Part shown: piece after piece, positions 46 through 53,775 of the stretch
Layout of the letters: every line of letters begins with the position of its first letter
How positions within the stretch are numbered: the first letter of the stretch is position 1
Source: Rhodamnia argentea
Lineage: Eukaryota > Streptophyta > Magnoliopsida > Myrtales > Myrtaceae
Reading direction: 5' to 3'
Assembly: GCF_020921035.1 (NCBI RefSeq)
Contig: NC_063152.1
Location: forward strand, 31,867,903 to 31,931,902
DNA: 64,000 nt
The notes under the pieces: generated by a model
The model's database searches: none
What the model saw: the letters and a program-made list of their open reading frames with translations, nothing else
Told to the model about the DNA's origin: nothing
Made by a program: the position numbers and the translations under genes

Positions 46-91
46 AAAGATAAGATTATTCTATTTTTTTTTTTTTTTGTCAAAGATAAGA
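46..91. repeat. Micro-insertion, T-tract form
   Basis: A 10-bp direct repeat AAAGATAAGA (46-55 and 82-91) flanks a 26-bp insert that is mostly T and ends TTTTGTC. It is a weaker member of the poly(A/T) micro-insertion class, because its flanking repeat is the shortest. Confidence 0.4.
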
Positions 92-265
92 GAAAGTTTA
101 TAATTAAGAAAGAAAAAAATGTTGATAACTAACTCAAATAAAAGTTGCTTGGCAAAACTAGTTTTTAGCTTAATTGTAGAGAATGATTGGTACATAAGGC
201 GAATGAAATGGTAACTCAACATGGAAATTGGACAAATTAGCAAAGATAATAAAAAGTTGGTGAGC

Positions 266-310
266 AACTCAAATGAGAGTTTCTTTTTTTTGGTCAAAAC
301 TCAAATGAGA
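266..310. repeat. Micro-insertion, T-tract then GGTCAA
   Basis: A perfect 13-bp direct repeat AACTCAAATGAGA (266-278 and 298-310) flanks a 19-bp insert: GTTTC, a T run, then GGTCAA. Read on the minus strand the insert is TTGACC followed by an A run. This looks like a target-site duplication around a poly(A)-tailed fragment. Confidence 0.6.
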
Positions 311-360
311 ATTGATAAACTTAACTAGTAACCTAATTAGTAAATTTAAGATGTTTATAA

Positions 361-406
361 GAAATTTAAGTGAACCACAAATAAAAAAAAAAGAAATTTA
401 AGTGAA
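361..406. repeat. Micro-insertion, A-tract form
   Basis: A perfect 14-bp direct repeat GAAATTTAAGTGAA (361-374 and 393-406) flanks an 18-bp insert, CCACAAAT followed by an A run. It matches the other A-tailed micro-insertions in layout. Confidence 0.6.
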
Positions 407-1043
407 GTTGGAAAAAGGAAACAAAATTGTATAGATAAGAGAAGTTGGTAGTAAATTGGTAACTTAAGCGGAGAAAAGTTCATAATCACTCTAATTGAGG
501 CTTGCAGTAAGCAACTCCAATGAGAATCGATAACTGAAAACTAGTGAGTACCTTAATTGGAGAAAAGTTGATAAGTCACACAAATAAAGGCTGGTAGTTT
601 GTAAATATAAGCAGTTGATATGAAAGGTAAATTTAGTAATTAATGATAGAAATTTCTTTTTTTGTCAAATATAAGAGATATTGACAACGACCAAAGTAAC
701 ATTTGTAACTAACTCAAATAAGAATTGGTAACACAAAACTATATGAGAACTTCATCGGAGAAAAATAAAAATCACTCTAATTAAGGTTGGTAATTTTTAA
801 AAAGAGTTGGTAGAACAACTCAATAATTAAGGAAGGTGATAACTCATTGGTGAATTTTAAGTAAATATATAGCTAAAATTGGTAGTAATTCAAATAAGAG
901 CTAGTAATTCAAAACTAATTGATTACTTAACTGAAGAAAATTTAATAAGTCATACAAATGAATGTTGGTACTTTTATGAAATAGCTCGATTGTAAGTTTT
1001 AACCGCTAATTTTTTTTAATAAATTAAAATTAGTTTCTGTCAG

Positions 1044-1084
1044 AGATAAGAGAACTTTTTTTAGCAACAAAGATAAGAGAACTT
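1044..1084. repeat. Micro-insertion, short T-tract form
   Basis: A perfect 14-bp direct repeat AGATAAGAGAACTT (1044-1057 and 1071-1084) flanks a 13-bp insert, a T run followed by AGCAACAA. It is the shortest insert of the class. Confidence 0.5.
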
Positions 1085-1487
1085 GAAAACTTAGGAAAAA
1101 AAAAACAAATAGACTTTGCTAAGTTGTTAACTGACTCAATAAAAGTTGGTAACGCAGCACTAATCGGTAACTTGATAGAAGAAAATTGATAATAACTCTA
1201 CTTATAGTTGGTAATTCTAAAATAGTTCGTAAATTTTACTGTTGATATGTAAGGCAAATAAAAATTGGTAACTCAATAGAGAAGTTGGTAAATTCAGGAA
1301 AAAAGTGGACACTGGTAGGAAATCCAAATGGTAAACTAAAACTAGTCGGTACTCTAATGGATGAAAAGTTATGAAGACTCAAAATAAAAATTGGTAACTT
1401 CATATCAAGGCATATGTAAGAAATGAAAAACAAAAATAAGTAAATGATAAAAGAGATGATAATAAAAATGGGCTAGTAGTTCAAAAA

Positions 1488-1650
1488 ATCTCAAACTAGT
1501 ACACACATACCATATTTAACCAAAGCTAAATTTTTTGTTGCGAAGAATCCCATACCGGCACACCCATACCACATTTACTCTCCAAACTAATTTTCATATC
1601 ATAAAAAATTTCAAACTGGTACATCCGTGACAAATCTACCAAAATCTTAA
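1488..1650. repeat. Fragment of the CAAACTGGTACA subrepeat family
   Basis: Three tandem, imperfect units of roughly 55-60 bp, each with a core like AAATCTCAAACTGGTACAC followed by a TTTACC-AAACTAATTTT segment. The same unit makes up the arms of the inverted-repeat element at 32.27-32.66 kb and the stretch at 6.51-6.64 kb, so this is probably one arm of a decayed copy. Confidence 0.5.
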
Positions 1651-2162
1651 AATAAAATTGGGATAAGTATGGCTCTGATCTACCATTTTGAGATTTTTTA
1701 TGGTCTCAAGACTCTCAACCCTTAAAAAAATTAAAATATGGAAGTTGTTAACTCAAGACAAGTTGGCAATTAATTGAAAAGAAAAATTTGAAAGACACTC
1801 AAATTAAGATTCGAGAATTCCTGTAAGAGTTGGTGAGTTTAAAGCTGACAGTGAATGCTATGGAAGTTGGTAATAAAGATAAGAAAAAATGGTAATTTGA
1901 ATATTGTTAAAAAAGAGTTTATAATTTCATAAAAGTGTCGGCGGGTTGCTACTACAGAGGCCCCCGTTTTATTTCTCTTTTCGTATTGAAACGATGGGGG
2001 ATATTATAGATTATTCATTTTTGGAAAAGATACAAATGAATGAATTTCAATTAGATGACGATAAAATGAATATCAATGTACGCAGTGAATAAAGAAGGTA
2101 GCATCGCTTACATGACATAAGAACACGACACATCGACCACTTATATGATATTTCATCACTCC

Positions 2163-2260
2163 TCATGAGAATTTCGGAGAATTTCATCACTCCTATGATA
2201 TTGAACATGAATTGGACGCCCCCCACCCAAAAAAAAAAAAGAGATTCATGAGAATTTCGG
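2163..2260. repeat. Possible longer A-tailed insertion
   Basis: A perfect 15-bp direct repeat TCATGAGAATTTCGG (2163-2177 and 2246-2260) flanks a 68-bp segment that ends in CACCC plus an A run. It could be a longer member of the micro-insertion class. The first half of the segment also repeats neighbouring sequence (TTTCATCACTCC), so a local duplication plus a small insertion is an alternative. Confidence 0.35.
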
Positions 2261-3768
2261 TGACGTTATTAGCATCATCGTACCTTCTGTCGACCATCTC
2301 CTGATACAACAATTGGTTTTGTCGCGGCCGGAACTCCTCCTGTTTATTTCCTTTGTTGGTACCTCGTGACTTGACCTAAAGCCAAAAGCATCTCGGCGAG
2401 ACCTTCGGCGAACTCATATGTTGGGACAGGGGGCACATTGGAGGGGAGGTCGGGATGCCTTGCCTTCAAACTCAAAACGGCCATTGCGGCTTCAATCGAA
2501 GGCCGAGAGCTAACAATGGGATGACCACACCAAAGCCCCGTTATCATCAAGGCTTTCACCTGTTTCTTGTCGGAATTTCTGCTGAGTCTGGAGTCCACGG
2601 CATCGAGCAACTTCCTGCGCCCACATTGCTTCCAAACCCACTCCACTAGGCCTGGTTGGCCTCATGCCAAGCCGATGACTCTTCTCCCGCATACTATTTC
2701 CAAAAGGACGACTCTGAAACCGTAGACATCGGATTCCTTATTTGCCTTACCCGTTTGATAGAATTCCGGAGCCAAGTAACCCAGTGTTCCTATTAATTCG
2801 GTTGTTTTTAGCCCTCTGGCGTGGTCAGCTAGCCTAGCGAATCCGAAATCTCCCAATTTGGTGTTGAACTTGTCATCGAGCATGGTGTTGCTGGATTTGA
2901 TATCCCTATGGATCACGCATTGATCACATTGTTCGTGTAGGTAGTGCGGTGCCGAGGCCAATCCCCGAGTGATGTTATACCTCCTTTCCCACGTCAACAG
3001 GGTTATTCTGCCCTTAAAGATCTGTCCTCGAAGCTAACTCCTCTCAAGAATTCGTACACCAGAGCGAAGTTATTCGCCTCGTGACAGTAGCCCATAAGTT
3101 GCATCAAGTTTTTGTGCCTAAGTTGGCTTAACGACATCACCTCGGATGCATACTCCTTTGTCCCTTTGTGCGAATCAGGATTTATTATCTTCACCGCGAT
3201 CCTTGTGCGACCGTCTCTTATGTGCCCTGCGTACACCATCCCGAAACCTCCTTTCCCCAAAATCCTATCATCTTCAAAAGAGTCACGCTCTTCAAACTCT
3301 TCATTGGAGAGCTTCTTGGGTCCCCTCTACTTCTCGAGCTCTTCAGTTGATTTCATGCTACGGTCGGTGGCTTCCTCCACCTCTCTCGGTCTCAATCGGT
3401 TCTCTTCGGTTGTCTTAGTTTCATTATCTCCCTCTGGCCAATCATTGATCGGGGTATGGATGGTCGCCTTTCGACCTACCAAGCAAATGAAGTGATAACG
3501 ATCACCACCGATCCAAGGACACCCGCCGTGAGTATAAAGTAGCCACCTCAACCAAGAGTTGGTAACCTCTTACGTCTGGACCTGTAAACGGGACCTAAAT
3601 TCCCATGAGTGGCAGTTGAGAAACCAACATCCACCGACTCTGGCAAATAGTCCCTTAAGCTGAGTGGGGCATGGTAAAGACTGACTGAGTTACTTGAATT
3701 CCCATCAGCATCCATCAACAAGACGCTCAAATTTCTTGAACGTAAGTCCTACGTTATACAACATTAAC

Positions 3769-4522
3769 TTTTGGAAAAAGTAATGGAATGTAGTAACAAT
3801 GTGGTCGGACTTTGAGGCGTGTAATCACTCTCTTTTAGGATCAATTTGCCCCACAAAGTTGCTATAGGTTTCTGGCAAATTCCCTTCAGGATACAACAAA
3901 GTCGCGATGAGATTACTGGATAGCAATTCCAGTAAATCTCCAAAAACTCTCTACGAAACAATGAAAATTGGTTGTCTCTCTTTTGAAGGAAAACGAAAGA
4001 ATAAAAGTTGTCCACAGAAATTGAACAGAATTGTCCTTTATATAATACTAATGGAACACACCTCTTGGTGTCCAAATTGCCCATGTACGAACGTTCCTAT
4101 TCATGTCCGAAACATCACACCAATTCATGTCCGAAACATTACCATTCGGACATGACTGTTCGTGAGTGACAACAATCATTCGAACACAACCGTTCGTAAG
4201 TGACAACCGCCATTTGGACGCAATTGTTCATATCTGAACAGTCATGATTAATAATATAGAATATAAATATATAAAAAAATTGATTTAGAAAAAGAAAAAA
4301 TAATAATTAAGGTTTATTTCCGTCCGCGGCGCGCAAGCGTGTAAAGTGCTAAGTGCGTCTAATAATCGCGCACCCGCACGCGGGTATAGTGGGGTCAGCT
4401 CACTTGCCCATTTCTTTATTCCGAAAGACTATTGTGGCCTTCTAACTAATAAAGAGACTTGCACCCTACTTTCTATCCTATGTGGGATTGAAAAGGCAGC
4501 TTTTGTTTTAACAAACAAACTT
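3769..4522 (-). mobile_element. Solo LTR-like insertion in the lectin pseudogene
   Basis: A 754-bp insert bounded by a perfect 10-bp direct repeat CAACATTAAC (3759-3768 and 4523-4532). Removing one repeat restores collinearity with the intact paralogue, so the edges are well defined. Read on the minus strand the insert starts near TGTTTGTTAAAACAAAAG, has a cached-promoter look (a TATATAAAGG box in its right half), and contains two copies of TTCATGTCCGAAACAT. It has no coding frame. The layout resembles a solitary plant LTR, but the 10-bp flanking repeat is longer than the usual 5 bp, so a DNA-transposon origin is not excluded. Confidence 0.5.
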
Positions 4523-6480: not shown

Positions 6481-6514
6481 ATTTTAAATAATTAAAAAAG
6501 AGTTAATACCACAA

Positions 6515-8439: not shown

Positions 8440-8967
8440 TGTTGGGGTAAACTTGAGAATCTGATGAAGATAGAGAAGTAGAAATAGATCCTTGATGCTT
8501 TGATGCATGATAACGATCACTGTCCTTAAAGTATTATTTGCCCCACTTTTGTTGCTGCCAGGTTTAGAACAAATATACCTCCAGGATAGACACCAAAGCC
8601 GCAGAGAAATAAGTTCAGCAATTACTCAATCTCGCAGAGAAATAAGTTCAGCAATTACTCAATCTCTCTCTTGGAAATTTCATGTTGAATGCGTTGTGCG
8701 TGTATAAAAGAGAAAAGACGAAAAGAGTTATATATCCGTGAAGTTATGAACAGTTGTGATTAATATCAATAACGTACGATTTGGTGTCCATTCAAAGATA
8801 CCAAATCAATACAACTCTTGGGAATAGGTACCTTATCCCTAACTATCACCACTCTTCACATTTAAAATAACTTCCTTTCAAAACTGTCAATAACATCTCT
8901 TTCGAAACAAAGAGTCATCTCTTTTCATTGAAGAGTCATATCTTTATGATAACAAACTATTTCAACA
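8440..8967 (-). repeat. Left (3') LTR of the Copia element
   Basis: 528 bp, starting TGTTGG and ending CAACA. Apart from a 33-bp tandem duplication (8600-8632 repeated at 8633-8665) it has the same length as the other LTR. A TATAAAAGAGAAAAGACG segment is shared by both. Confidence 0.9.
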
Positions 8968-14117: not shown

Positions 14118-16061
14118 CTAGACCGGACCTTCCATCAACTGTCTCAGATCTGCGGGAAGGTTGGAAAGATCTGCCCTCGAGTTCAAGATGGACATCGCCT
14201 CTGCAATCGAGGGCCGAAGGCTAACATCGAGATGAGCACACCAAAGCCCCACGATCATCAAGACCTTCGCCTGTTCCTTGTCGAAATTTATGCCGAGCTT
14301 CAAGTCCATGGGCAAGTTCCCCTGCCCATATTGCTTCCGAACCCACTCTACCAGGTGGACTTGGTCTTGGATGACTCTTCTCCCACATACTATTTCCAAA
14401 AGGACGACTCCGAAACTGAAGACATCGGATTCCTTACTTACCTTACCAGTCTGATAGCATTCCGGAGCCAAGTAACCCTGCGTTCCTTTCAGTTGGGTTG
14501 TTTTTTGGCCTTTGGCGTGGTCGACTAGCCTAGCCAAGCCGAAATCTCCCAATTTGGCCTCGAACTTTTCATCGAGCAAGGCGTTGCTAGATTTGATATC
14601 CCTGTGGATCACGCATTGATTCCATTTTTCGTGCAGGTGGTGCAGGCCCGAGGCTAATCCCTGAGCGATGTTGTACCTCCTTTCCCACGTCAACAAGCTT
14701 CTGCCTTTAAAAAGATGATCCTCCAAGCTACCTTCTCTCATGAATTCGTAAACCAGGGCGAACTTGTTTGCCTCGTGACAATATCCTAAAAGTTGCACCA
14801 AGTTTCTGTGCTTAAGTTGGCTTCCCGACATCACCTCGGACAGATACTCATCTATTCCTTGGTTTGAATCAGAGTGTATTATCTTCACAGCGACTGGGGT
14901 GCAAGCGTCTCCTATGTGCCCTTCATATACGTTGCCGAAACCTCCTTTTCCCAAGATCCTGGCCTCTGCAAAAGAATTGGTCGCAGTCATCAACTCTTCA
15001 TATGAGAACTTCTTGAGTCTCAACTTTTCGAGCTTCTCAGTTAAATTCGCATTGTGGTCGTCTTCTTCTATACCTCTCTCGGTGTCGATCATGTTCTCTT
15101 CAGTTTTCTTAGATGCATTATCATCCTCCCGCCTAACATTGCTCGGGTATGGACGAGTGACTTTTGCCCTACAATATACCCAAGCAAGAATGATTACCAC
15201 CAATATACCAACGCAGCCAATGGCTATGAGCAGCCACTGCCGCCAAGATAAGGTAGTCTTTTCGGGCCGGAGCCGTAAACTAGAGCTAAATTCCCATGAG
15301 TGGATGATGTGATATTCAAATGCAGCTCCAGTGGCAGCTGAGAAACCAACATCCACCCACTCTGGTAAATACTCACTTAAGTTGAGTGGGGCATAGTGAA
15401 GACTGATTGAGTTACTGGAATTCCCATCAGCGTCCATCAAGACAACGCTCAAATTTTTCGCCTGTGATTCGTACGTTATCGAAGCATTAACCAACCCACT
15501 GACCTTCATGGTTTTGTTCAACCATGGGACGGCGACATTGGCCACAGACCTGATGTTGTTTAAATCTATACCAACATGTGGAACATCCCCATCCCAGGGA
15601 TTCTTGAAAGTGTCAATCTCGATTGCAACAAAAGAACCCCTGGGAAGACCTAGATATTCTCCTCCCCAGTCACATGACATGCCTGAGCCTGGAGGAGCAA
15701 CAAAGAAAGCCAACCCATCGCCGGAAACGTTCCTACTTTGAGAGTCGATGCTGAATACAAACTGGGCGACGAAATCTGCCGCATTCCCCGTAGCCTTGTC
15801 CCAAAGACGCATTTCCTTGGAATACATAGCTTGCCCGCAATTTCCACTCGGGTTTTGGTTCGGCTGGCTTGGGCTGAGATATAGGTTAGGAGACAGCACA
15901 GAGGCATTCCCTTGAATGTCTAGGAGCTTGAGGCTCTCAGAGCTAAATGAGGGGAAATCAAAAGATGTGTTCTCAAAGCGCGTAGCTGAAGCTAAAAAGG
16001 GTTTGAACAGAGAGACCATCAAGACTACTACTAATGTGGATGTGGGAGCTTGATCCATCAT
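14118..16061 (-). CDS. L-type lectin receptor-like kinase (copy 2, intact)
   Basis: A single-exon plasma-membrane receptor kinase of 647 aa, the usual length for plant L-type LecRKs. I chose the start at 16061 (MMDQAPTSTL) because a hydrophobic signal peptide (about residues 3-25, cleaved near ASATR) follows at once. The frame is open another 98 codons upstream, but that part has no lectin homology. The legume-lectin domain spans about 28-268, with GDGLAFFVAP and the metal-loop stretch EIDTFKNPWDGDVPHVGIDLN. A membrane helix lies at about 276-297. The kinase spans about 366-630: GKGGFGNV 371-378, K393, HRDIK 486-490 (RD type), DFG 506-508 and APE 532-534, so all catalytic residues are present. 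The family senses carbohydrates or extracellular ligands in defence and stress signalling; the ligand here is unknown. The neighbours on both sides are dead paralogues. Confidence 0.93.
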   Translation of the reverse strand: MMDQAPTSTLVVVLMVSLFKPFLASATRFENTSFDFPSFSSESLKLLDIQGNASVLSPNLYLSPSQPNQNPSGNCGQAMYSKEMRLWDKATGNAADFVAQFVFSIDSQSRNVSGDGLAFFVAPPGSGMSCDWGGEYLGLPRGSFVAIEIDTFKNPWDGDVPHVGIDLNNIRSVANVAVPWLNKTMKVSGLVNASITYESQAKNLSVVLMDADGNSSNSISLHYAPLNLSEYLPEWVDVGFSAATGAAFEYHIIHSWEFSSSLRLRPEKTTLSWRQWLLIAIGCVGILVVIILAWVYCRAKVTRPYPSNVRREDDNASKKTEENMIDTERGIEEDDHNANLTEKLEKLRLKKFSYEELMTATNSFAEARILGKGGFGNVYEGHIGDACTPVAVKIIHSDSNQGIDEYLSEVMSGSQLKHRNLVQLLGYCHEANKFALVYEFMREGSLEDHLFKGRSLLTWERRYNIAQGLASGLHHLHEKWNQCVIHRDIKSSNALLDEKFEAKLGDFGLARLVDHAKGQKTTQLKGTQGYLAPECYQTGKVSKESDVFSFGVVLLEIVCGRRVIQDQVHLVEWVRKQYGQGNLPMDLKLGINFDKEQAKVLMIVGLWCAHLDVSLRPSIAEAMSILNSRADLSNLPADLRQLMEGPV

Positions 16062-17949
16062 ACTCACCGCTCGGCAATTAAAACTGAAAAAGGTGATGCG
16101 ACCACCAAGCTCTAGTGGCAAAGTGACAATCGCCATAATAAGTCTGACAATCACCAAGCTCAGCGGGATTCTATTGGAACCTTGAAATAGGCTCGACGAA
16201 CCGCGTGTTACTAAGAAAGACAGCATAATATGGTTGAGAACGGCCGGCTGTAATGTCTGGTTGATCTCATGTGGGAGGATGTTCCTAGGAAACATATTAC
16301 AAGTCTGACTAGATGATCGGACGGCAGATTTAGATATAATTAAGGGCATCATCAAACGAAAATCGTATTCGGTGATCCTATATTAAGCCAAGTCTTTCGG
16401 TCGTCTTATTTGTCGATGTGAAAACAAATTAAATATAGAGGAATTGAGTTGTTGCTGTTGTGTCCTTTCGATCAATTTAAAAGGCGATGTCCATGTCTTC
16501 TAGGAAGAACCGATGCGACGGGTAAATAAAACTCTTTCTTATCAATTACAAGTTTCGTATGCATTTCTTTGCGACGCCTTAAATTCACCAACTCTTTCTA
16601 CAAATTACTGACCTTAATTGCAGTAACTTATCAATAATTCTCTGATTAAATTACTAACTAGAGATCGAGTTACCAGCTATCATTTGAGTTGTATATGAAG
16701 CATTTTTTTTTAAATTACCAACTTTTCTGATCTTTATCAACTTTAAATTACCTTTCTTCCAATTGTTTATAGAATCCCAAAAACTCTACCCTACCTTAAA
16801 CCCTAATCCTCTTTGCTTCCTTCATCGTTTTGCCCTGCCAACACCCTAATCCTCTTTTATTCTCTCTTATTGTTCCATTACCAAATCCCCTCTTCCCAAA
16901 TAATCTTTCCTCAGCTTCGATTTCTTCAATTTCTTAATTCGTGGTTTTCAGCTTAGAAATAAATACTTCTTCTCTAGAAATTAACTTTTGGTCACTAGTT
17001 GAATTTTATACTTTTGCTTCTGAGCAGAAGTTGATTTTTCTACTTCTGGAGAGAAGTAATTTTTTTTTTTTACTTGTTCAATTGGCTCTATTTCTAGAAT
17101 AAAAAAATGCTCCAAAATTTGCGTTTTATGCAAGCCCTTGACCCTTGAAATTTCTTCTAGCTATTCTGGACTATAAGTCAATGGATTCTCTCCATTATAC
17201 ATTATTGTAGAACAACCCCATCCCAACCTCATTACATACAAACCCATTCGTCAAAATACTCATTCTGAAACTTACCAGCGACCATCTCCACTAACATCGT
17301 TTGCAATAGGCGACCTTCCTTCAATCCATTGATAGTTAGTCTGGTTTTTCTTCTCGAGGTCCATCGCCCGCATCTTAAGGCTAGGACCCGTCGAATTTAC
17401 GTATCAATACCATCTGAACTGCCATTACTAAAATAGAGAAAAAAGAGGATAATGTAAGGGAAAATTCTCTACAACTCGGAAAACCTCATCTTGAGAATTT
17501 AAGATAAGAAATTGTTAGTTTACCTCTTTTAACCAACTTGATCCCATGGTTCCATCCAATGAGTTGGTTTAGTAGTTAAGCCCCTTACGTGTGTGGTATA
17601 GACGCAGTATACAAGAACCAATATCTAACTAGTCAAGAGTGGCTGTTATATTCTTCTCAGATGATGTTTTGCTTTGTTTAGTATCTTCGAAATCACGTTC
17701 TGCATGCAATTCGTTAGACTATCACAGGAAGTTGCAAAAATCGTATCTTGCAAGAGTCGTTACGGCAATCTCTATTTCTTTTTCGTTATTTTTTGCAGTA
17801 TCATAGCAATCCTAACCATCAATTTCAAGATTAAGACACATTTAAGAAACATACTTACAAAACTTTAACATTTTGCTTGTAGATTACATACACATGTATA
17901 ACATTTTGCTTCAAGATGGCATACCAACATGTAACTCTGAGACTTCATG
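16062..17949. other. Intergenic DNA between lectin kinase copies, with repeat segments
   Basis: The first 300 bp is promoter-proximal DNA of the lectin kinase gene and shares phrases (AAGGGCATCATC, TCGATGTGAAA) with the region upstream of copy 3. From 16.56 to 16.76 kb it carries the TTACCAAC-type AT-rich repeat. From 16.96 to 17.11 kb a segment (TAGAAATTAACTTTTGGTC) matches the AT-rich arm at 45.42 kb. I recognise no gene. Confidence 0.5.
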
Positions 17950-19372
17950 GCCCGCACTCAGAGCGAGGCATTTGCCTAAAGCAAAAAGCATCAAGCCGAG
18001 ACCTTCGGATCAGTAACATGTTAGGACTGTGGCATATACGAGGGGAGGTTGGGATGCCTCGCCTTCAAGGTCAGAACGGCCATTGCTGCTTCGATCGAAG
18101 GCCTAGAGTTAACGGTGGGATGAGCACACCAGAGCCCCAATACCATCAAGGCTTTCGCCTGTCTCTTGTTGAAATCTTTGCCGAGCCTCGAGTCCACGGC
18201 ATTGAGCAACTTCCCATGCCCATAATGCTCCCAAACCCACTTTACAAGGGCATGTTGGACTTGGTCTGCTCGTGCCGACTCCACAGCACGTCTCCCACAT
18301 ACTATCTCCAGAAGGACGACTCCAAAACTGTAAACATTAGATTCCTTATTTGCCTTACCTATTTCACAATACTCTAGAGCCGCATAACCCCATGTTCCTA
18401 TCATTTCAGTTGTTTTTCACCCTTTGGCATGGTCCACTAGCCTAGCCAAGCCGAAATCTCCTAATTTGCCTCCGACGTTTCATCCAACATGGCGTTACTG
18501 GATTTTATATCCCTGTGGATCACACATTGCTTACAATCTCTATGCAGGTAGTGCAGCCCCGAGGCTAATCCCATAGCAATGTTGTACCTCCTTTCCCATG
18601 TCGACAAGGTGCTTTCCATAAGCAGATGATCCTCCAAGCTACCATGTTTCATGAATTCGTAAACCAGGGCGAAGTTATTTGCCTCGTGAAAGCAGCCTAT
18701 AAGTTGCACCAAGTTTCTGTGCCTAAGCTGGCTTAAGGACCTCATCTCCGACACTTACTCCTATCTCCCTTGGCCTAAAACTGAGTTCATCACCTTCACA
18801 GCGACCACTGTGCGATCGTCTCCTGTTTGCCCTTTATAAACTACCCCAAAACCTCCTTTCCCCAGAATCCTATCATCTGCAAAAGAATTGGTCGCGGTCG
18901 TCAATTCTTGATAGGAGAACCTCTTAGGTCCATTGAACTACTCGAGCTCGTGTTAATTTCACTCCTTGCTTGCCTGCTTCCTCCACATTATTTCCCTCTG
19001 GCAAATCCGCCGCCGAAATGGTTTCCCTAGCAAGAGTTGATGCTGAACGTAAATCGGGCCGTGAAATCCAACACATTCCCAGTGGCATCGTCCCAAAGGT
19101 CCACTTTTGAGGAATACATAGCTTGGCCGCATTCCCTGTGGGTGCTCCAGTTCCGCTGGCTTACATATAGGTAAGGAGACACTACAAAGGCATTCCCTTG
19201 AATGTCTAGGAGCTTGAGGCTCTCAGAGCCAAAGGATCAAAAATTGAAAAATATGTTCTCAAGGTGTGTAGCTGAAGCCGAAAAGGGTTTGAGCAAAGAG
19301 TCATCAAGGGTAGTACTAACGTGGAGCTGATCTTTATGTCTTCCAAAGCTTTTCATGTTGGATGTTCTTGAT
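17950..19372 (-). pseudogene. L-type lectin receptor kinase pseudogene (copy 3)
   Basis: This third head-to-tail copy is non-functional. From its 5' end, the N-terminal lectin portion survives near 19345-19040 (words matching LLDIQGNA and SPNLYLS of copy 2). The rest of the lectin domain and the membrane segment, equal to about residues 100-300 of copy 2, are missing between about 19.04 and 18.96 kb. The kinase resumes with a GKGGFGVVY-type loop near 18.86 kb, then LRHRNLVQL and HRDIKSSN in 18754-18461, and the C-lobe (SFGVVLLEIVCGRR) in 18404-18021. Frames change between these blocks and the activation segment is damaged. It retains higher identity in the kinase C-lobe to copy 1 than to copy 2 (for example LNAVDSRLGKDF versus LLDAVDSRLSRN). 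Confidence 0.9.
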
Positions 19373-19637
19373 GTTTGGCGGATCTGGTTACTGCTTGCGA
19401 ACTCTAAGCGTCGTGCAGTGCCGGCGTGGGCAGTTTAACATCTTCATCACTCTCGGCTGCGCAGCTGTCTGTGATAAAACAGAAGACGTGGTTAGAGTGA
19501 CGATGATCGCCTCGGTGCGCCCGACTCGATAAAGAACGGCAGCATTTAGAGACTATCGATGTGAAAGCAAATTAAAAATAATGAAGGGCATCATCGACAG
19601 ATAATGGGGGTCCATGACATTGTAATGAGTCAAAAGT

Positions 19638-19689
19638 CTTTCTATAATCATTCGACCACAAAAAAAAAAAAAAAAGCCTTTCTATAATC
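19638..19689. repeat. Micro-insertion, TTCGACCAC plus A-tract
   Basis: A perfect 12-bp direct repeat CTTTCTATAATC (19638-19649 and 19678-19689) flanks ATTCGACCAC followed by a run of about 15 A. It is one of the clearest members of the class because the flank, junction motif and A-tail are all intact. Confidence 0.65.
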
Positions 19690-19734: not shown

Positions 19735-20170
19735 CTAATAGCTTAAGCTTTTAAATCATTTGGTAGTAATCTCGCATGGGATCGGAGCTTGATGTCCTGA
19801 GTTCAAATCTTCCATGTTCTTATTTGCCTCCTCAAGTGCATATTTCAACACTTTGTGCTAAGACCAAACTCCAACCTCCATATAAGGGGAGTGTTAGAAT
19901 ATTTAAATAACAGATCACATATTTATTTAATAGCTTAAACTTTTAAACAATTGGCATAGTCTCACGAAATCTCACATGATATCAGAATAAGATGTCATAA
20001 GTTCAAATATTCCATGCCCTTATTTTCCTCCCTAATTGAATTTTTTTGTGCTTTAGATAAAGACCAAAGTACAGCCTCCCCAATTGCATATTTTCATGTT
20101 TAGATAAAGACCAAAGTACAGCCTCCCCAATTGCATATTTTCATGCTTTAGACAAAGACCAATGTGCATC
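19735..20170 (+). mobile_element. TRIM-like short LTR element remnant
   Basis: A fossil of a small LTR element with no coding region. A purine tract AAGGGGA near 19.89 kb is followed by TGTTAGAATATTTAAATAA, an LTR-like start. The phrase AATAGCTTAARCTTTTAAA occurs twice (near 19737 and 19926). Each is followed by a degenerate primer-site-like word (GGGATCGGAGC, then GATATCAGAATAAG) and GAGTTCAAAT or AAGTTCAAAT. This LTR-interior-LTR-interior order suggests a rearranged copy. It is old and decayed. Its right edge overlaps a 47-bp tandem repeat. Confidence 0.5.
20052..20160. repeat. 47-bp tandem repeat, about 2.3 copies
   Basis: The unit starting TTTAGATAAAGACCAAAGT occupies 20052-20098 and 20099-20145 without change. 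A partial third copy follows with one substitution (TTTAGACAAAGACC). The near-identity of the first two units implies a recent duplication. Confidence 0.85.
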
Positions 20171-20479: not shown

Positions 20480-21045
20480 TTTATACTTACTTTTATATAA
20501 AATTACCAGTCTAAATTATGGTGACCCGCTAATTTTTTTAAAATTAAGTCACCCAATAGTTCTGGGTTTTCAACTCTCATTTAATTGTTCATTTTAAATT
20601 AGCAACTTCTTAATTGAGTTACCAACTTTTATTTGTCTTTTAGCATTTTAGAGAATACTAGCCTAAATTAGTATGACTCATAAGTGTTTTCCCTTTGAAT
20701 TACCATAAATAATTGGCTATCGACTCTTGCTTAAGCTACTTCCCCACGTTAATTTATTTTCTTTTAATTTTGCAAATTGTATTTATCAATTACACAGTTT
20801 TATTTGTTTCTATTACCAGCTCTTCTTAAAATAACAGGCCTTAATTACGTTGACTTACTAGTTTTTATGCCAACTCTTGTTTGAGTTACTTATTAAGTTC
20901 TTTCTTTTATTAACCAACTTTTCTTAGCTTTATCAACTTTTTATTTACATTTCTTAACCTCACTTTAAATTTACCAAAGGTTATATGAAATTACTTACTT
21001 TAATTTAAGTGATTTAATTTATACACTCCATCTAAGTGTTGGTGT
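20480..21045. repeat. AT-rich TTACCAACT-type repeat domain
   Basis: A degenerate repeat of ACCAACTTTTATT and GAGTTACC words, the reverse complement of the motif that fills 1-1.9 kb. The right end (20935-21040) is collinear with 6265-6385. It contains no gene. Confidence 0.55.
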
Positions 21046-25045: not shown

Positions 25046-26980
25046 AGAGCTAAATTCAAAAAAGGAAACCAACTCAAATAGCAAAACTACTTGCACTAGG
25101 AAAATTTCTTTTTCAAACTCAAACTCGAGACATATTTTTAGCAAAAACATTTCTTGCATTATGTCCTTCTTTTCTTAAATTACCCTGCTTGGAAAATATA
25201 TTTCTAGTAATCACCAACAGATAGAAATCGAGGGATGGCTTTGCTAACATAACAGTTTTTGAATAACTGTGAAAATAACAATATATTGTGAGCCGCAAAT
25301 TCTTGAAGGAGTAGACTTCACAATAATTCTAATTATTTCTTGTGACTAACAACATGATGTTAATTTTACAGTGGATTGAGTACTGTTGCGTAATCGTTTC
25401 TAATCGAGGAATTGATGATCGTTCGAGGAGTCCAAGCCGTGAAAACCCATAATCTCTTGCGTGGATAGTAATAATCGTTGGATGGTAATTACAATCCGTC
25501 TAAAACAAGCGGCTTGGAACGTCTCCAATGTGGAACCTTCGCAAACAAATTTTACTTCGAGCTGGTCAAAACGAAAATTACTAACCCTTTTTTTTTTTTT
25601 TTGTGGTCAAAAGGGGCACTGGTGATGATGCAATGGCGTTCGTGATATGTACGACCGCTTCTCCCAAACCAGTTGCCAATTTCGTTACTCCTAACGGGCG
25701 TCTCGTCAATCCTCAGGAGTTAGGACAAGGGTCGTCGAAGACGACCGGCGGCCAGGTCGAGCTGATTATCGTCGAAACGACTTCGACTATTTCGGATTCT
25801 AGTAGCTTCTTCGAGAGTCGTTTCCTCGAGAAAATAATAATAATAATCAGAGGATATACCGTCGGAGTAAAGACAACGTTACAAAAGCAGTCTCATCTGC
25901 CTTTTCGAGGATTTTGTGCCATGTTAGAAATGATAAGGATCTCCGACCAAAAAAAAAAAAAAAAAAGAAATGATAAGGATCTGGGAAGGGCGTGATGAGA
26001 CAGAGCGATTCGATTGCACTTGGGAAAAACAGTGGAATCATCTCCAAATTCTTCATTTAGTCCAGCAGATCTTTCATAAAAAAGGCCAGCGGCTAAAATT
26101 GTTTTTCATTACTCTATTTGATGCTTTTGAATCTTGATAAACCCAAGTTGCAGTACATAAAATTCAGATTACGAAACTCACTCGATTTACCATGGCTTCA
26201 AGAAATTAATAGAACTCACTTGCCCGAGTTTGTAATATACGGATACATCTACCTGTTGGCTTGAGCTTTTGGATTGAAACTTTATATGGCATCGAAGCTC
26301 AGGCCAAGTAGTTCGAATCCCGGTGCTCTTCTCTCGAACTCATTGCTCGTGTTGAGCTCACAATAAGGGACGCACATAAATTAGGGGCGTTGCGGAAATT
26401 ATAAACCGAGCCGAGCCATGAACGCGTAAGTATAATCACCCTTCATCTATTTCTTAAATTTTTAGGTGGGTTTTTCATATGTAATTCAACTTAAGTTAAG
26501 GACTTAGGATTTTTCACCGCACCTACATATGCAAAAATTGTCACATATGCTTATATGGGAACTCGATTTTTTCCGGTCTCATCTGCACCGAGGATGCATT
26601 TGTTTCGAGAAAAATTCCATGATAAAGGAAAATACTTTCTAGGAAATTATTTTTCAGAAAAATATTTCCCTTTTTCAGATTAGGAAATTCATTTTCCCAA
26701 TTCTAAGCATGCATTATTTTCTTTAACCGTAGGTGGTCTTCCGTCAATCAATAATTCCCAGTAAACTAAACATGTGAAAGTCCGAAAATGCAATTTCGCA
26801 AAAGATTCTTTTTGATCAAATAAACGCGCCTTTGAGTTGAGTCGGATCTCATATATATGACTTGAATTTGGAGAATAAGATAGATCGGATTTGGGACGTA
26901 GCGAACGGACGCACGCAACATCCTCTCGATCTACGACCAATCTATTTCTGGTCTTTTGCTTGTTATAATCTACCAAATCC
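25046..26980. other. Intergenic DNA upstream of the bHLH gene
   Basis: No gene is supported. An open frame at 25603-25995 starts right after a T-run and ends in low complexity, so I do not call it. A stretch at about 26.26-26.33 kb (GCTTTTGGATTGAAAC, then a GGCATCGAAGCTC word and TTCGAATCCCGG) resembles an LTR end plus degenerate primer site, as in the TRIM-like element at 19.7 kb. The region 26.59-26.70 kb is rich in GGAAAATA/TTTTCC words typical of small transposon remnants. Confidence 0.4.
25926..25982. repeat. Micro-insertion, CCGACC plus A-tract, 17-bp flanks
   Basis: A perfect 17-bp direct repeat AGAAATGATAAGGATCT (25926-25942 and 25966-25982) flanks CCGACC followed by a run of 17 A. 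This is the best-preserved member of the class: the flanking duplication is long and identical, so the insertion is probably recent. Confidence 0.75.
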
Positions 26981-40408: not shown

Positions 40409-40466
40409 AACCTTAGAGCTGAGTGTTCGACCAAAAAAAAAAAAAAAATAACCTTAGAGTTGACTG
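40409..40466. repeat. Micro-insertion, TTCGACC plus A-tract
   Basis: A 17-bp direct repeat with two differences, AACCTTAGAGCTGAGTG (40409-40425) and AACCTTAGAGTTGACTG (40450-40466), flanks TTCGACC followed by a run of 16 A and a T. Same junction motif as 19.65 kb and 25.94 kb, but somewhat older. Confidence 0.7.
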
Positions 40467-40805: not shown

Positions 40806-40848
40806 CACCAAGACACAATTTTTTTTTTTGGTGAAACACCAAGACACA
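40806..40848. repeat. Micro-insertion, T-tract then GGTGAAA
   Basis: A perfect 12-bp direct repeat CACCAAGACACA (40806-40817 and 40837-40848) flanks a 19-bp insert, A, a T run, then GGTGAAA. On the minus strand it reads TTTCACC plus an A run, a variant of the TTCGACC junction. Confidence 0.6.
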
Positions 40849-45400: not shown

Positions 45401-45404
45401 ATGA

Positions 45405-45960
45405 CATTATTTCTACTTTAGAAATTAACTTTCGACCAAAAATTAATTTTTTTACTTCTATTCCAAAAATTAATTTCTGATCATAGAAATTCATTTGGTA
45501 ACAGTTAAAAAATTTTATTTCTAAAATATTATTAACAGAAAATTTTCTATAAAGAGTTATTATCAATGGCAGAAAAATTTCTATTTTATTTTTTAACTTT
45601 TTAAATTTATTTAAAAATAGTTTTTATTATAAAAAAATATTATTTACATTTTACTCCGGCGACCGGAGATGGCGACTTGGCTGCGGCGGCCGGAGATGGG
45701 CGGTGGTCGGTGGTTGGCAATGGGCAGCGGATGTGGTGGTCGGTGATCATAGCCAAGAACGGGTGGCAGCAGGCGATGGTCGGTGGTTGGTGATGGTCAC
45801 GAGTGGTGATGGGCAGTGGCCAGCTGTGGTCGGCGATTGTCAACGGTAGCAGTTGTCAACGATAGCGGTTTTCAATTGTTAATTTACTACTAAATGAGTT
45901 TCTTTTAGATAGGCAATTTACCCGGGAGAAATCATTTTTTTTTAACCTTTCCCTATTTGC
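45405..45960. repeat. AT-rich arm plus GC-rich core element
   Basis: The left 250 bp is AT-rich with TAGAAATTAACTTTYGACC words matching 16.98 kb and 54.5 kb. The centre (45.65-45.85 kb) is GC-rich (CCGGCGACCGGAGATGGCG, GGTCGGTGG words) with open frames caused by composition. I see this as a decayed non-autonomous element; the right boundary is unclear. Confidence 0.4.
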
Positions 45961-46898: not shown

Positions 46899-49800
46899 TA
46901 TAGAAACCACTGAAGTGGGATCTGATTAGCAGTTATGATGTACATGAAAATGACCATTGCCCAGAAGAAGACACCGAAGAGAAATCCGCTCTTGGCGCAT
47001 CATCAAAAGCTTCATGTGATTGCCCTGGCGTGCCGGCTTGTTAATCGTGTTCAACACATGCGTCCACAGATCCTTTTTCATTAATCTTACATTTACATGT
47101 ACCAAGTCTTCATGTAGTGCGGGATCTTTCAGTTTTCTTGTTGGTCTTCCTTCCACCTGCTCTCGGTTGGATCAAGAACTTGCCAAATCGGAAGCGGAAT
47201 CCCGGCTTATCCGGCCATAGCGACTCGAAACATCTTTCTTGTGGCCCGAGTTTTGTATCATTCGATGGCGAACCGTTGTCTGAATTCGCTTGTTGGTTGG
47301 TCAAACGGGGACTTAGAACGAACATAACCGACTTCGATTTGGACACTTAAGATAGCTTTGACCATTCGAAAATGTAACACATATCTGTCGAAGCATCAAG
47401 GGATAAACATCGGCACACGACTCTTCAACAGACCCACTTCCAACCATGAATCCCCTCTTTTTCGTTGTTCTAACCTCGACCATTCAATGATGAATAGAAG
47501 CGCAATTAAAATTATTGGGGAGCACCTGATTTGGAATCCATCTTCTTTTACATGGAATAGCGACGATCCAAAGTTCAAGTGTGCCACCCTATGTATCTAG
47601 CTCATGAAAACTGTCCCTCACGAATCGTGTTAGATGAGAGACTCGAGTACTAAAGCCCGGCCTCTCATCACAAGTCGGGCTCTACTCCATCCACGTTAAT
47701 CAGTCCCATATTAGATTAATTCAACTAAATAATATACCTCGCATCAGAAAAACTCTTACATCGAGTCTTTCATTAAGTCTAGTCGGCGACCTTGAATGTC
47801 ATGTCGTTTTCTACGAAGGGCTGTAAATCAACGGCCATGAATGGCATCGCTTTCCTCCAAGCTCGTTCTTTTCTCGGCCTTGGACCGTAGTACCGTACAC
47901 GTTGAGCTTTTCTTAGGCTCTAAGACTTGCATTCCACGACGTCATGGCTTGGAATTTAAAGCTAGCGTCTTGGGGGAAATCTCTTCGGACGTGTGCGAAC
48001 CAGAAGCGGAATGACGGGGAAAGTTCAGAGAAACGTATAAGGGTACGAACAAAAGAATTGACCGTTGACTGTTCTCCTTCAGATGAATCCCGTGATCGAT
48101 TTGATCATCGAATATTGCCTGCTTATAGTATTAATACCATGAAAGGGACTCCAAATATGATACCAAGTACGACACGAGCATCTTTTCCTTCCGTGTAAGC
48201 CGGGCTTTTAAAGAAGGGGAAACACTGATACCGACCCGTCCTCCGATAACGTGTTAGGTATGATCTCGAAAACCCCCTAAAAAAAAAACGAAAGAGGAAA
48301 TTAAAGGGTGTACTTTTTAACACCAAGAATACAACAAGGAAGTAATATGAAGAGGGTGAATGTAATTTTTCTTTTTTTAGATTATCGAAAAAGTTTTAAA
48401 CCTATCTTGCACTCGTGTCAATTCAGTCATAAACCTTATAATATGGCCAGTTTAGACATAAACATTTTGACGATTTGTCGATAGATTCCATTCGGCTAAT
48501 TTTAGATTGAAATCGTAGATGTGGATGCCGATCGTCGTACGTGGCATGTATGGCACGGCTGGCGGATTTGGAGAAGAAAAAAGGTTGAAGGATGAGCGAT
48601 GGGATTCACATGTGTGGACTTAAGTGTCCAAATCACGGTGGACCAGATCAAATTGCCAACGATGTCAGATCAGAATTTCTTCTGGGCCCGAGATCAGATC
48701 AGAAGTTAAACTTGTTGCTTCTTGTTATTGTTTTGGATCGATTTCTTTTTTGGGATTAGGCCCATACCCTAGGCCCAGAATAAGGCGACAAAAGTAAACG
48801 AACTAGCAGGACAACTTACCGATTCTCCTAACATGTTCTCTCTATCATTTGCAAGACTAATCCTAATTAGGTTTTTCAAGAGAGAAAGGAGCGGGAACGG
48901 AAAATAATTTGTGAACAACGAAGTTGGTTCTCTTCTAATTGCGCGAATTGATTAACTCAACTCGTTAATCGATGTGGAAGTATTCCTCTTTCAAATAAAT
49001 AGCCCTTTCGAACGCAATCCCAAAAAAAAAACAGGCTGTACAGTTACACGACCGAGAAATTAGTTATGAAATGACAGTAGGACACCAAGAACGGCAGTGA
49101 AAAAAGATACCGTCACCAGAGCCGAGACAACATATGCATCGCCCGAGCATCGGATTGTCGGATTCCCCTCGAGGGGAAAGGCGCATTACCTTCGCCTCTT
49201 GAAAAACCTCCGGTGGCGACCCGCGATTGTTATAATTACCGCAATGCGGGAATTAGGTCATCAATCTGCTTTTTTATTTCTTTCAATGATATATTTTATG
49301 TGTTGAGCTTGATAATAGACTGTCAATGCGGGAACTATGAGGCTGGAAATCAATAATGGCATCCAAGCTGCATGTTCCTCATGGCTAATGTTCACGAATT
49401 GGACTTAATTGACATCACATGATCGAATGCCATACAGCCAAACCAAAACAAAAAAGAGAGATGCACATAATTGATGCTGAAGTCAAACAAACACGAGAGA
49501 CCCATCAATATGATTATTTTTCTCTATTTTTCTAATGGGGGTGCGAAAAATTCAAAAAAAAAAATTATAGACTAAGACAAAGATAATCCCCCAACGAAGA
49601 CCTTATGTAATATTCCTCGTGCACAAAAAGAATATGTCCCGCCATTGGCCCAAATTATCATGCGTACATTTCGTGATGTACTAAAATATTCAAATCGGAT
49701 TTGATAAGAGGGGATATGATATGCTTTGGAATTCAAAATAGGCACCCTTCCTACCATGATGTTCTCGGAGAATATGACGTGCGTACGTTTAGCGGAAAAT

Positions 49801-50004
49801 AAATGCTCTTGAAAATATTTTTTTTTAAATGACCGCTTATCTCATTTACAAAAATAAATGATTAAAAAAAATCAAATTTATATGATTTTATTATTATCGA
49901 TAGTGAAAATATTATTTAATGACTAATTATTTTAAGCAATATAAATAATTATTTCTTTTTTTAAAAAAAATTCATGCTTTTTATCCGATGAAAAAAGCAA
50001 ATTA
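46899..50004. other. Intergenic DNA with one repeat arm
   Basis: No gene is supported; frames at 46926-47156, 47110-47350 and 47944-48198 have no motif I recognise. The segment 48.37-48.57 kb is a copy of the arm of the 22.65-23.4 kb element (GTGTCAATTCAGTCATAAACC, ATTCGGCTAATTTTAGATTG). Confidence 0.4.
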
Positions 50005-50660
50005 ATGCTAACACTCGAGAAATTTAAAGCTAGCATCAATGCCGCGTGCCCTTGTGGGAAATCGTATGTGGGGAGAGATTATTGTTGCTTCACACGATGA
50101 GCTTTGCTCGGATTCTCGCGAGGCTGGGGTTCCAACTTATGTAGTACCGACACTTTTTGGAGGCTTTTTTGTGTCGCGTTCAACACTTTTTGATACGTAG
50201 TCAGCACTCTAAACACACCAGCGACACGCAAGTCCAGCATCCCGACACGCCACTTCGACATACACTTGATCAATTTTAAGCATTTTCAATGAATCAAAAT
50301 GTAAATATATATCTAGCCATCCTAAAATTAGTATATTCAGCAAATCCAACAAAAATTAATTGTGAATCTCTAACGTAAGAAGAAACTCACCATTGATATT
50401 TTTATATACTCATAATAAATATATTTAACATACAACGTGTCAAAATTTTTTACATTTGGATCATGTAACGGCGATAATTTATTCCTAAACATTTTCATAA
50501 ATATTGTTATCATCACCTTCACGCCGACCGCTCGAACAACTAGCTTTCCACCACATGGCACCAGGTGATTTCAAAAATTCCTAGCTGTATTCAACCAACA
50601 AAACAAAAAGAATTCCTAGCGTCATCACGTCACGACGGTCGGAAACTACGTAGCATCACG
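50005..50660. repeat. Rearranged copy of the 51.53-51.77 kb segment
   Basis: 50005-50130 is a direct copy of 51535-51650 (shared CTCGAGAAAT, GATTCTCGCGAGGC-type words). 50515-50660 is an inverted copy of 51640-51765 (shared GGTGCCA-GTGGTGGAAAGCTAG and CCGACGGCCGTGATGTGA-type words). The left copy therefore appears split, with its second half turned round. Confidence 0.55.
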
Positions 50661-50711
50661 ATACACGAATTATTTTTTAAAAAGGTAAATTTTTTCGCAC
50701 AACAGACGAAT

Positions 50712-51511
50712 GGTGGATTTGGTTCAACTTTGGAAATGAGTTTTGGGAAAATGTAAATACTTTTAACTTAAGGGGTTTTGGGAAAATGCAAATGGCATTT
50801 GGTAAAAAGCTCCTTTGAAAAATAGTTTTGGGGCTAATTAGTATTTGGCAAAGCAAATTTGCAAAAGGGCTTTCTGCCATATTTATTTAAATAATAAAAA
50901 AAGAAAATCCAAACCCTATGGTTACGATTGTCGATGAACTAGATTTGGCTCGCCGGCGGCAGTGGGTCGATGCCGCCGGGGGACGAACGAACCCCGGCTA
51001 GGGTCGCCCTGGGGGTCACGAGACACCCGACCCTCTCCCGGGCTCGTGGCCAAAGGTCGCTCGACCTTGGCTAGGTCCGCCCTAGGGTTGCGAGACGCCC
51101 GTCGGCTGTCTCCCGTGTTGCGAGACCCCGGCGACAAGGCCTGAGGTCGCATGAGTCAAGCGACGGCCGCCGGGGGTCGCCCACCCCGGGCGACCTCGGC
51201 CGACGCTCGCAGATCCGGCTGGCCGGTGGCCGTAACTAAGGTTTGGATTTTTTTATATTTAAAAACCATATAACAAAAAAATAAGAGGCAAAATTGGAAT
51301 TTGAAAAAATAAGTAAGGGTAAGTTTGGAAAACAAAAATCATAGCTCAGCATCTGGCCAAATGCAAAAAGCTTAATGATGTCAAGCTTTTAGTATTCCCA
51401 AGACTAATTTTCATCTCAAATCCCCTTGAGAATGATTGTCAAACGTCCTGTATTTTTTTCAAAAAACTTTGGAGCCCCAATGAGCTTTGAAAATGCTCAA
51501 CCAAACCCACC
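50712..51511. mobile_element. TIR element with GC-rich core
   Basis: The left end GGTGGATTTGGTTCAACTTT and the right end on the minus strand, GGTGGGTTTGGTTGAGCATT, are imperfect inverted repeats related to those of the 46455-46898 element. An inner inverted pair AAATCCAAACC-TATGGTTACG (50.91 kb) and CGTAACTAAGGTTTGGATTT (51.23 kb) brackets a GC-rich core (50.93-51.24 kb) rich in GGTCGCC and CGACC words. It contains no transposase. The nesting suggests an inner element or a captured core. Confidence 0.55.
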
Positions 51512-51770
51512 TAAAATCTCAATGGAAGTCAAGGTAACTCTCGAGAAATCGAAAGCGAACATCGGTGCCACTCTGTCCTCGTGGAAATTCGTCCACGGGG
51601 GAAGATTAAGGTTGCTTCTTCGCTCGAATTCTCGCGAGGCCGGTGGTCCCGACGGCCGTGATGTGACAACACTAAGAATTCCGAGAAGAAAAAAAAATTG
51701 CAAATCCTTGACATCACATGGTGCCACGTGGTGGAAAGCTAGTGGTTCGGACGGTGGGCGTGAAAGGTGA
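51512..51770. repeat. Intact partner of the rearranged 50.0-50.66 kb copy
   Basis: This segment carries both halves that are found separated and partly inverted at 50005-50130 and 50515-50660. It has no coding motif; frames on both strands are compositional. Confidence 0.5.
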
Positions 51771-53722
51771 TTTTTTTTTTTTTTTGGGAGTTGCGAGCTT
51801 TAACGGTTGATGATGCCCCGCCAACTTAAAAAAGAAAAAAAAGAGAAAAAAAAGAAGTTTGAAAACAAATAAAATAAATTTTTCAAAGAGCTTATCATTT
51901 TTTTTTTCAATTTTTTGCCCTTTTTGCTTTTCCCTTTTCCCCATTTTTTTTTTAATGTTACATTCAATGTCACAAATGGCTGGCATTGGACCCCATGCCA
52001 AAGGAGTGAGGCATGTGAGTTTGGGGAGGGTATCCTATAAGGGTGAGTTGGCCAACCCTCTCCCTTTTATAAGTACAAAACTGAACAAGAAGATTGCAAT
52101 TTCCAATTGAAAGGGGTGATCGAAATCGAGGGCCAATTGTGGGCCCCCCACCTCGATGAGTTTGGTGATATGGTAGGTGAGCACAATTATTAAGGACCCC
52201 GTGAACTGATCCGGACAATAGAATTAACACGATATTTCGCTTAAGCAGTTTAGCTAGAAACGAGTCACGGATTTAACTGTCATTAGCCTTCGCAATTACA
52301 AACGAGACGGATTTCAAAACACGATTGAGAAGTTTTGAAACCTATGCATTGCGTGATCGGACATTTCAGAGTCGAAAGGTCCGTATTGCTGTTGCGGACC
52401 GTGCAAAGGTGTTCGTGTTTTAAGACATGACAACCCAAATTCACGTGGGATTTGCCCGAACCATTTCACGCCGAAGTGGGGGACCATTTACAAGTGACGA
52501 GAGTCCCCGTAGAAAGGGACAGACTCGTAAAATCACGTATGCTGCGGGGACAAAATTGTAAATTCACGGCACCGCGATCGTTGTGGAGCCGTTGCACATG
52601 CGCTATTTTTCATCCTCGAGTCCTTTCGCTGTCAACAGATCGAACGGTCAAAAAGGCGGCTGATTTGTGCTGAGCCGTTGGATTTTGACCGTATCTCTCC
52701 GCTTTTTCCATTTCTCTTCTCTCCCTTTTTTTTTTTACTTTTGTTTTTCCCTCGGGGTTTAATTTTTTGTGGCTGTGATTCTGTTACCGTTGCTGGAAGC
52801 ATCGTTGGTTCGCTTCGGAAGGAACCAGGCCGGGCCCCACTCTTTCAAGTGCAATTTACTACTGGGAAGAACGTGCGACTTTGATGAAAATGCTCGATGC
52901 GTCGAGATCTTTCTCGTGTAGAAATCTGGACCGTTGGATCTTATGTTCTTCCGTGAATTCGTTGATCCGAGATCGTTTAGATTCCCGCAGAGAAAAAAAT
53001 GAAATTGCTTAGTTATCACGACATGTCCCATGATGAGATGTCTGAGGTCATTTTGATCGATAATTAATGAGTTTATCGTTTAAAGAAAAACAAGCATTCA
53101 TCATTTTTATTTGATTTTCTTTGACGCGACTACTAAAGTATATATACACGCACACGCACGCGTCAATGAAGTTGGCTAGAACCAACTGATTAAAATCGGT
53201 CTTTCAAATGAAATGCGTAGGTTCATGGGTAAAATCATACAAACTGGCTAAGGCCGGCTCTTCATCGGATTAACTCTCTAAATCACTTGTAATTCTCGGA
53301 TAAATCGTTTTTGGTTATTTAATAATTTGTATAGAAGCCGCGACAAAAGAGATAAGATATTGGATGGCTAAAAAGAAACTCGAAGTGCTTCAACCATTTT
53401 GTCAAGGGAAACTAATACATTAATAATGCAAAACATAAATTCAATACATTTTGAAAATGAAAAATAATAATTCGTGAACGGCTCCCAGGTCTACCCTTAG
53501 AATTGCTCGGCTCAATTTCAGGCTGGATCCAAAGCGTCCCAACTTGGTTTCTGGCTTGGGAAATTCCAGAACTAGCCATGACTTGATGAGTTTTAGGTAC
53601 TTGATCAATGAATAGACCTGGTCTGGAATCGATCACCTGACTTACCTCAATGACACGTTTATACTTCCATCTTTTAAGGAAAGAAAGGAAACACAAGCAT
53701 AAAAATTGATCACAATTATAGC
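51771..53722. other. Intergenic DNA, nothing recognised
   Basis: Several poly(T) runs near 51.77 and 51.90 kb. A moderately GC-rich, gene-leader-like stretch lies at 52.5-52.9 kb (TCTTCTCTCCC tract followed by short frames). I find no conserved protein or RNA gene. Confidence 0.4.
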
Positions 53723-53775
53723 CCCCATCTAGTTTTTTTTTTTTTTTTTGGTAAGGTCTAGTCCCCATCTAGTTT
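53723..53775. repeat. Micro-insertion, long T-tract then GGTAAGG
   Basis: A perfect 13-bp direct repeat CCCCATCTAGTTT (53723-53735 and 53763-53775) flanks a 27-bp insert of T run plus GGTAAGGTCTAGT. Immediately to the right lies CCCACC plus an A run (53776-53795), possibly a second event in the opposite orientation. Confidence 0.6.

Follow-up and report, generated by a model that had tools for sequence, protein, structure and literature searches.

Tiny poly(A)-tailed insertions flanked by short direct repeats in a 64-kb stretch of Rhodamnia argentea DNA

We analysed a stretch of 64,000 nt from Rhodamnia argentea (Myrtaceae; assembly GCF_020921035.1, contig NC_063152.1, positions 31,867,903 to 31,931,902 of the forward strand), hereafter the window, which carries a set of very small poly(A)-tailed insertions flanked by short duplications. 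Unless another collection is named, all the counts and searches given here are at the level of this window. The window reads as plant nuclear DNA: eight of the ten long frames scanned (19 were listed) match Pfam, including a legume-lectin receptor kinase, copia gag and pol fragments, a plant bHLH ACT-like domain, an aquaporin and a BTB protein.

Eight loci were kept as tiny insertions, with duplications of 12-17 bp and inserts of 10-24 nt, the latter sizes depending on the boundaries that we set in this analysis. In each of them no more than 2 bases separate the tail from the 3' copy of the duplication. The original prediction had listed nine loci of this layout, with inserts of 13-27 bp and duplications of 10-17 bp; a scan for repeats recovered eight of them, but not the one at 46.

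Three of the loci are on the plus strand outside the beginning of the window. At 25926-25982 a perfect 17-bp duplication (25926-25942 / 25966-25982) surrounds CCGACC(A)17 (25943-25965), at 40409-40466 a 17-bp duplication with 2 mismatches (40409-40425 / 40450-40466) surrounds TTCGACC(A)16T (40426-40449), and at 19633-19689 (19638 in the original prediction) a 17-bp duplication with 1 mismatch (19633-19649 / 19673-19689) surrounds ATTCGACCAC(A)13 (19650-19672). Two more are on the minus strand and are given here as read on the strand that carries the A-run, the A-strand: TTTCACC(A)11T (40818-40836) within a perfect 12-bp duplication at 40806-40848 (40806-40817 / 40837-40848), and GACCTTACC(A)14 (53736-53758) within a 17-bp duplication with 1 mismatch at 53719-53775 (53719-53735 / 53759-53775; first noted at 53723).

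The other three lie in a repeat-rich stretch, 1-1500. At 266-313 on the minus strand, a 16-bp duplication with 1 mismatch (266-281 / 298-313) flanks an insert (282-297) whose A-strand is TTGACC(A)8GA. At 359-406 on the plus strand (first noted at 361), a perfect 16-bp duplication (359-374 / 391-406) flanks CCACAAAT(A)8 (375-390). The last one, at 1041-1084 on the minus strand (first noted at 1044), has a short tail: a 17-bp duplication with 1 mismatch (1041-1057 / 1068-1084) flanks an insert (1058-1067) with the A-strand TTGCTAAAAA, which reads TTGCT(A)5 and does not fit GACC, though the duplication is sound. Pairs of 16-mers with at most 1 mismatch at a spacing of 20-59 bp occur in this stretch only from these three loci (7 of 57,780 position pairs). 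The stretch itself is degenerate and A/T-rich, units like GTTGGTAACTCAAAT and GATAAGAGA recur in it, and related sequence is found near 16587-16691, 20596-20639 and 20871-20931.

Regarding the duplications, the two copies differ at 5 of the 112 positions compared over seven loci, and therefore the insertions do not all appear to be recent. The duplications also tend to start with A (16 of 28 of the first four positions in seven loci, against a background of 0.30; p=0.0025), although this property was chosen post hoc, the boundaries were set after the loci were known, and 40806 does not fit.

The loci were evaluated in two ways. The direct-repeat scan took all the ungapped pairs with a score of 11 or more and a start-to-start distance of 12-70, and returned 52 pairs, among which were eight of the nine loci first noted (266, 359, 1044, 19632, 25926, 40409, 40806 and 53719). 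Seven of these eight have an A/T run of at least 8 bases and that at 1044 has a run of 7. The remaining pairs were tandem, low-complexity or contained other inserts, a few of them also A/T-rich (16646, 22821). The second evaluation started from the 88 A/T runs of 7 or more bases in the window and asked for the layout of target-primed reverse transcription (TPRT), that is, repeat, 3-15 nt, A-run and repeat. At a score of 11 or more, 9/88 runs showed it, compared with 3 of the 5,231 chimeras in which the downstream flanks had been exchanged between runs. An earlier control with random positions gave 9/88 versus 8/1,320, and Markov shuffles gave 2 matches in 40 windows, these shuffles having on average 50 runs of 7 or more bases instead of 88.

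As an orientation control we used the mirror layout, with the A-run on the opposite side. It was found in 1/88 runs at a score of 11 or more, 2/88 at 10 or more and 5/88 at 9 or more, whereas the TPRT layout was found in 9/88 at each of these thresholds; moreover, the single mirror match at 11 or more is a realignment of the 25926 locus. The ninth match to the TPRT layout, at 45436, was dropped because a paralogue, 16964-17013, runs ungapped through part of the supposed insert. This leaves 8/87 versus 3/5,231 (p ~6e-13, a rough value as the runs are not fully independent). The tiny insert structures with flanking duplications are confirmed as real in the window, where they are in excess of chance.

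The bases before the tail are also shared. ACC stands directly before the tail in 5/8 inserts, a degree of sharing that was seen in 0/20,000 random draws, and ACCAC in two more, 19633 and, when the last base of the duplication is counted, 359. One of these two motifs adjoins the tail in 6/9 runs with a duplication versus 2/79 runs without it. Nine A-runs are at least 13 bases long; C precedes eight of them and ACC or ACCAC six, compared with 326/966 and 17/966 for runs of 4-5 bases; four of the six runs so preceded have a duplication. Starting from the motif instead, a duplication with a score of 8 or more was found for 5/9 GACC tails of 4 or more A (4/8 without 45434) versus 0/23 tails with control tetramers, and for 2/7 CACC or TACC tails of 5 or more A. 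The motif before the tail is therefore real, and it is not uniform. The convergence on TTCGACC or a variant that had been predicted holds for most loci, although not for 1044 or for 359. One of the variants, TTTGACC, would follow from TTCGACC by ordinary decay, namely a C-to-T change at CpG.

A tail adjoining the 3' copy, a target duplication and an A-rich start are the marks of TPRT as established for long interspersed elements (LINEs). We therefore consider it likely that the eight loci are separate TPRT insertions made by a LINE-type enzyme on poly(A) RNA. TPRT as the class of mechanism is well supported, and the proposal of TPRT by a LINE enzyme in the original prediction agrees with the position of the tail, the 12-17 bp duplications, the tendency to A-rich starts and the association between motif and tail. 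An endonuclease of LINE type would nick one strand at an A/T-rich site, and the reverse transcriptase would begin at an RNA's poly(A) tail, copy the tail and 5-10 more bases, and stop. The second strand would be cut 12-17 bp away, and therefore repair would leave a duplication of that length. This enzyme probably belongs to the L1 clade, the most likely one in flowering plants: according to the passages of PMC3747384 on this point, many flowering plants harbour the L1 clade alone, mostly with (A)n ends, and a table of that paper gives such ends for 224/233 flowering-plant L1 families. Since the inserts have in common what precedes the tail (TTYGACC, TTYGACCAC or variants of these), one RNA family would be the usual template, probably the 3' end of a LINE or of a short interspersed element (SINE).

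We looked for longer copies of such a template. One longer poly(A)-tailed insertion is present on the plus strand at 2163-2260, where a perfect 15-bp duplication (2163-2177 / 2246-2260) surrounds 51 nt, (A)12 and GAGAT, with the end CCCACCC(A)12. Its anatomy is like that of the tiny inserts, and we regard it as the same kind of event with more of the template kept. ATTTCATCACTCCT occurs at 2150 and again at 2181. A scan for exact 14-mers, reaching 9 kb upstream of each A-run of at least 7 bases, gave, beyond the short-range loci, only run 2229, which belongs to this insert, and when seven chosen tails were scanned to 12 kb upstream a duplication was found only for 2229. A binned scan to 650 bp with a score of 12 or more, covering 86 runs (those near the window ends, 383 among them, were left out), found duplications within 45 bp for 7/86 (control 3/256), at 45-120 bp for 1/86, again 2229 (0/255), at 120-300 bp for 1/86, run 284, which is explained at short range (0/255), and at 300-650 bp for 0/86 (3/256).

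Outside the window, TTCGACC(A)11 matched one viral contig of the public collections and TTYGACC(A)12 four prokaryote contigs, and none of these five had a flanking duplication as judged by eye; three further patterns gave 0, 2 and 0 matches in viral contigs. The literature matches listed included no title on this class of inserts, most subscription journals being outside the reach of the search. As for empty sites, 12 sites with 400 bp of flank gave no paralogous match in the window that spanned the site and reached 10 bases beyond it at either end.

Several observations weigh against the reading as TPRT on one usual template. Nearly every copy stops no more than about 10 nt from the tail, whereas ordinary 5' truncation would leave long copies too. 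The insertion at 2163 was the only longer one seen in the window and has a different end, and our searches, which were crude, found in the window no longer copy sharing the 3' end and no long-range duplication around a GACC tail. Nine simple patterns for the LINE reverse transcriptase motif, applied to the six frames of the window instead of a profile search of all frames, gave one match, which was not a reverse transcriptase, and ARAGORN found 0 transfer RNA (tRNA) genes in the window. The motif varies (TTTCACC, GACCTTACC, CCACAAAT, TTGCT), so that a single template is not certain, and three further GACC(A)4 places have no duplication. The looser control of the binned scan gave relatively more chance matches (3/256 at a score of 12 or more) than the exchange of flanks between runs. 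Finally, two places with a motif and a long tail, 25588 and 53776, which are outside our counts, have no duplication even within 12 kb upstream.

As LINE 5' truncation is expected to leave long copies, either the template must be very short, or something just upstream halts the enzyme, or long copies are absent here by chance or selection. We tentatively suggest, as a possibility that falls short of being probable, a class of retroposons in which reverse transcription as a rule stops no more than about 10 nt from the tail, leaving copies that are little else than poly(A) seeds. This early stop might be caused by a stable hairpin immediately before TTYGACC(A)n, or the template RNA might itself be that short. 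The inserts may also be the truncated end of a SINE; no Rfam match was found in the window, and the inserts, at 10-24 nt, are too short for both the A and B boxes of RNA polymerase III, for which the window was not searched. The extreme 5'-truncated copies of the original prediction stand as to the TPRT class, but plain truncation does not account for nearly every copy stopping so early, and a parent LINE or SINE ending in TTCGACC(A)n is unproven.

Alternatively, a plant L1 enzyme might copy the tails of many cellular RNAs and drop off early, the bases before the tail being the ends of different messenger RNAs (mRNAs) or additions at the junction. The unlike motifs at 1041 (TTGCT), 359 (CCACAAAT) and 53719 (GACCTTACC) and the different end of the 2163 insert would agree with this, and processed pseudogenes in flowering plants are noted in a passage of PMC3747384. 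However, TTYGACC is hardly to be expected at the ends of different mRNAs, ACC stands directly before the tail in 5/8 inserts against 0/20,000 random draws, and we consider this explanation unlikely. Another kind of template would be a polyadenylated non-coding RNA, such as the 3' end of 25S ribosomal RNA (rRNA) or CCA-ended tRNA fragments. The 25S rRNA ends near GATTCGA, which ATTCGACC at 19650 and TTCGACC at 40426 resemble, and ACC before the A-run in 5/8 inserts, many of which read ACC-A, recalls the CCA-ended fragments. Nevertheless, the variants TTTTGACC, TTTCACC and CTTACC fit no single rRNA end, and such a template seems very unlikely. A primer given in part of PMC4691072 supports only ATTCAGCCCTTTGTCGCTAA near the 25S end, not the final bases, and rRNA-end patterns gave 0, 0 and one match in viral contigs, the latter with no Rfam match in its 2,501 bases. 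The last alternative, replication slippage or repair of staggered breaks leaving repeats and filler in which A-runs grew later, is in keeping with the many direct repeats of the window that are tandem or hold other inserts (for example 4099, 8600, 16800, 20052 and 50740), but it is disfavoured and in our opinion hardly credible, as it predicts neither the GACC common before the tail nor a preferred side, and yet the A-run lies beside the 3' copy in 9/88 runs versus 1/88 in the mirror layout at 11 or more (9 versus 5 at 9 or more).

Taking TPRT by a LINE-type enzyme as the preferred explanation, the inserts can be compared with known systems. Like 5'-truncated copies of L1-clade LINEs, which insert at a T/A-rich nick of the TT|AAAA kind, they have an (A)n tail, a flanking target duplication and, as far as the starts of the duplications suggest, an A-rich nick side, and a poly(A) tail beside the 3' copy of a duplication of about 7-20 bp, by which L1 copies are recognised, is found here in the 9/88 runs versus 3/5,231. 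Truncated LINE copies are in general 100-1,000 bp long according to a review, whereas here 5-10 bases and the tail are inserted and the window has no longer copy with the same end. Like the poly(A)-tailed SINEs of plants, the inserts are short, tailed and flanked by duplications; maize SINEs are mostly in introns or untranslated regions (1174/1991, as given in the part of PMC2774510 on their location). Unlike plant SINEs, they offer no space for the A and B boxes, and no tRNA gene was found in the window. In human genes, poly(A)-only insertions mediated by L1 consist of little beyond the tail, with a target duplication; what differs here is the recurring short motif before the tail and the density, about 8 per 64 kb. 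The tailless retropseudogenes of mammals are, in the relevant passages of PMC3747384, truncated retrocopies also attributed to the L1 enzyme, although they have no poly(A) tail and our inserts are mostly tail. The phenomenon is a variant of known LINE-driven insertion.

Some loci were rejected or set apart. The only match at locus 46 is one of 10 bp, at a distance of 8 nt from the tail, and its TTTGAC-A motif belongs to a local repeat also found near 653 and 1034. At 45433 and 45436 (45436-45476) there were apparent overlapping extra copies with scores of 8 and 14, but a gapless alignment of 50 columns to the paralogue at 16964-17013 passes through the first of them and through some of the second; the pair 45408-45457 / 16964-17013 is a short repeat, rich in A/T, that has the look of a GACC(A)n insertion and its duplication. 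On the minus strand, 25588-25612 reads TTTTGACCAC(A)15, with the motif of 19633 and no duplication in the TPRT layout; it is ambiguous, as a second TTTTGACCA lies about 16 nt past the tail. On the plus strand, CCCACC(A)15 at 53776-53796 has no duplication and lies directly beside the 53719 insertion in the opposite orientation. Across 53719-53796 the two tails point outwards: T17 GGTAAGGTC comes first, followed by the second duplication copy and by CCCACC(A)15, and a 17-bp duplication was found for the first tail only. This may reflect two events at one site, 53776 being possibly a second, duplication-less one at the same break, or else priming from the two sides of a single break.

Elsewhere in the window, stretches related to lectin receptor kinases at 2375-2662, 14118-16382 (a complete frame) and 17975-18261 are probably local duplicates. 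There are also short tandem duplications with periods of 33-47 bp at 8600-8666, 20027-20162, 4143-4207 and 17866-17933, two of them with perfect copies, which suggests frequent local duplication.

Inserts as tiny as these are easily missed. Unusually, a single longer poly(A)-tailed insert was seen beside them, and it has a different end. The interest of the class rests on this size limit and, if the extrapolation holds, on its copy number: if about one insert per 8 kb held across a plant genome of several hundred Mb (a size that we assume), there would be tens of thousands of copies, which would seed most of the long A/T tracts and escape repeat annotation. With long copies lacking, the cause of the 5' truncation could then be put to the test. 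If genome-wide, these insertions would be a simple source of poly(A) microsatellites near plant genes, would provide many presence/absence markers with the mismatches of the duplication as a built-in age clock, and would show how early, in nature, a plant LINE enzyme releases its template.

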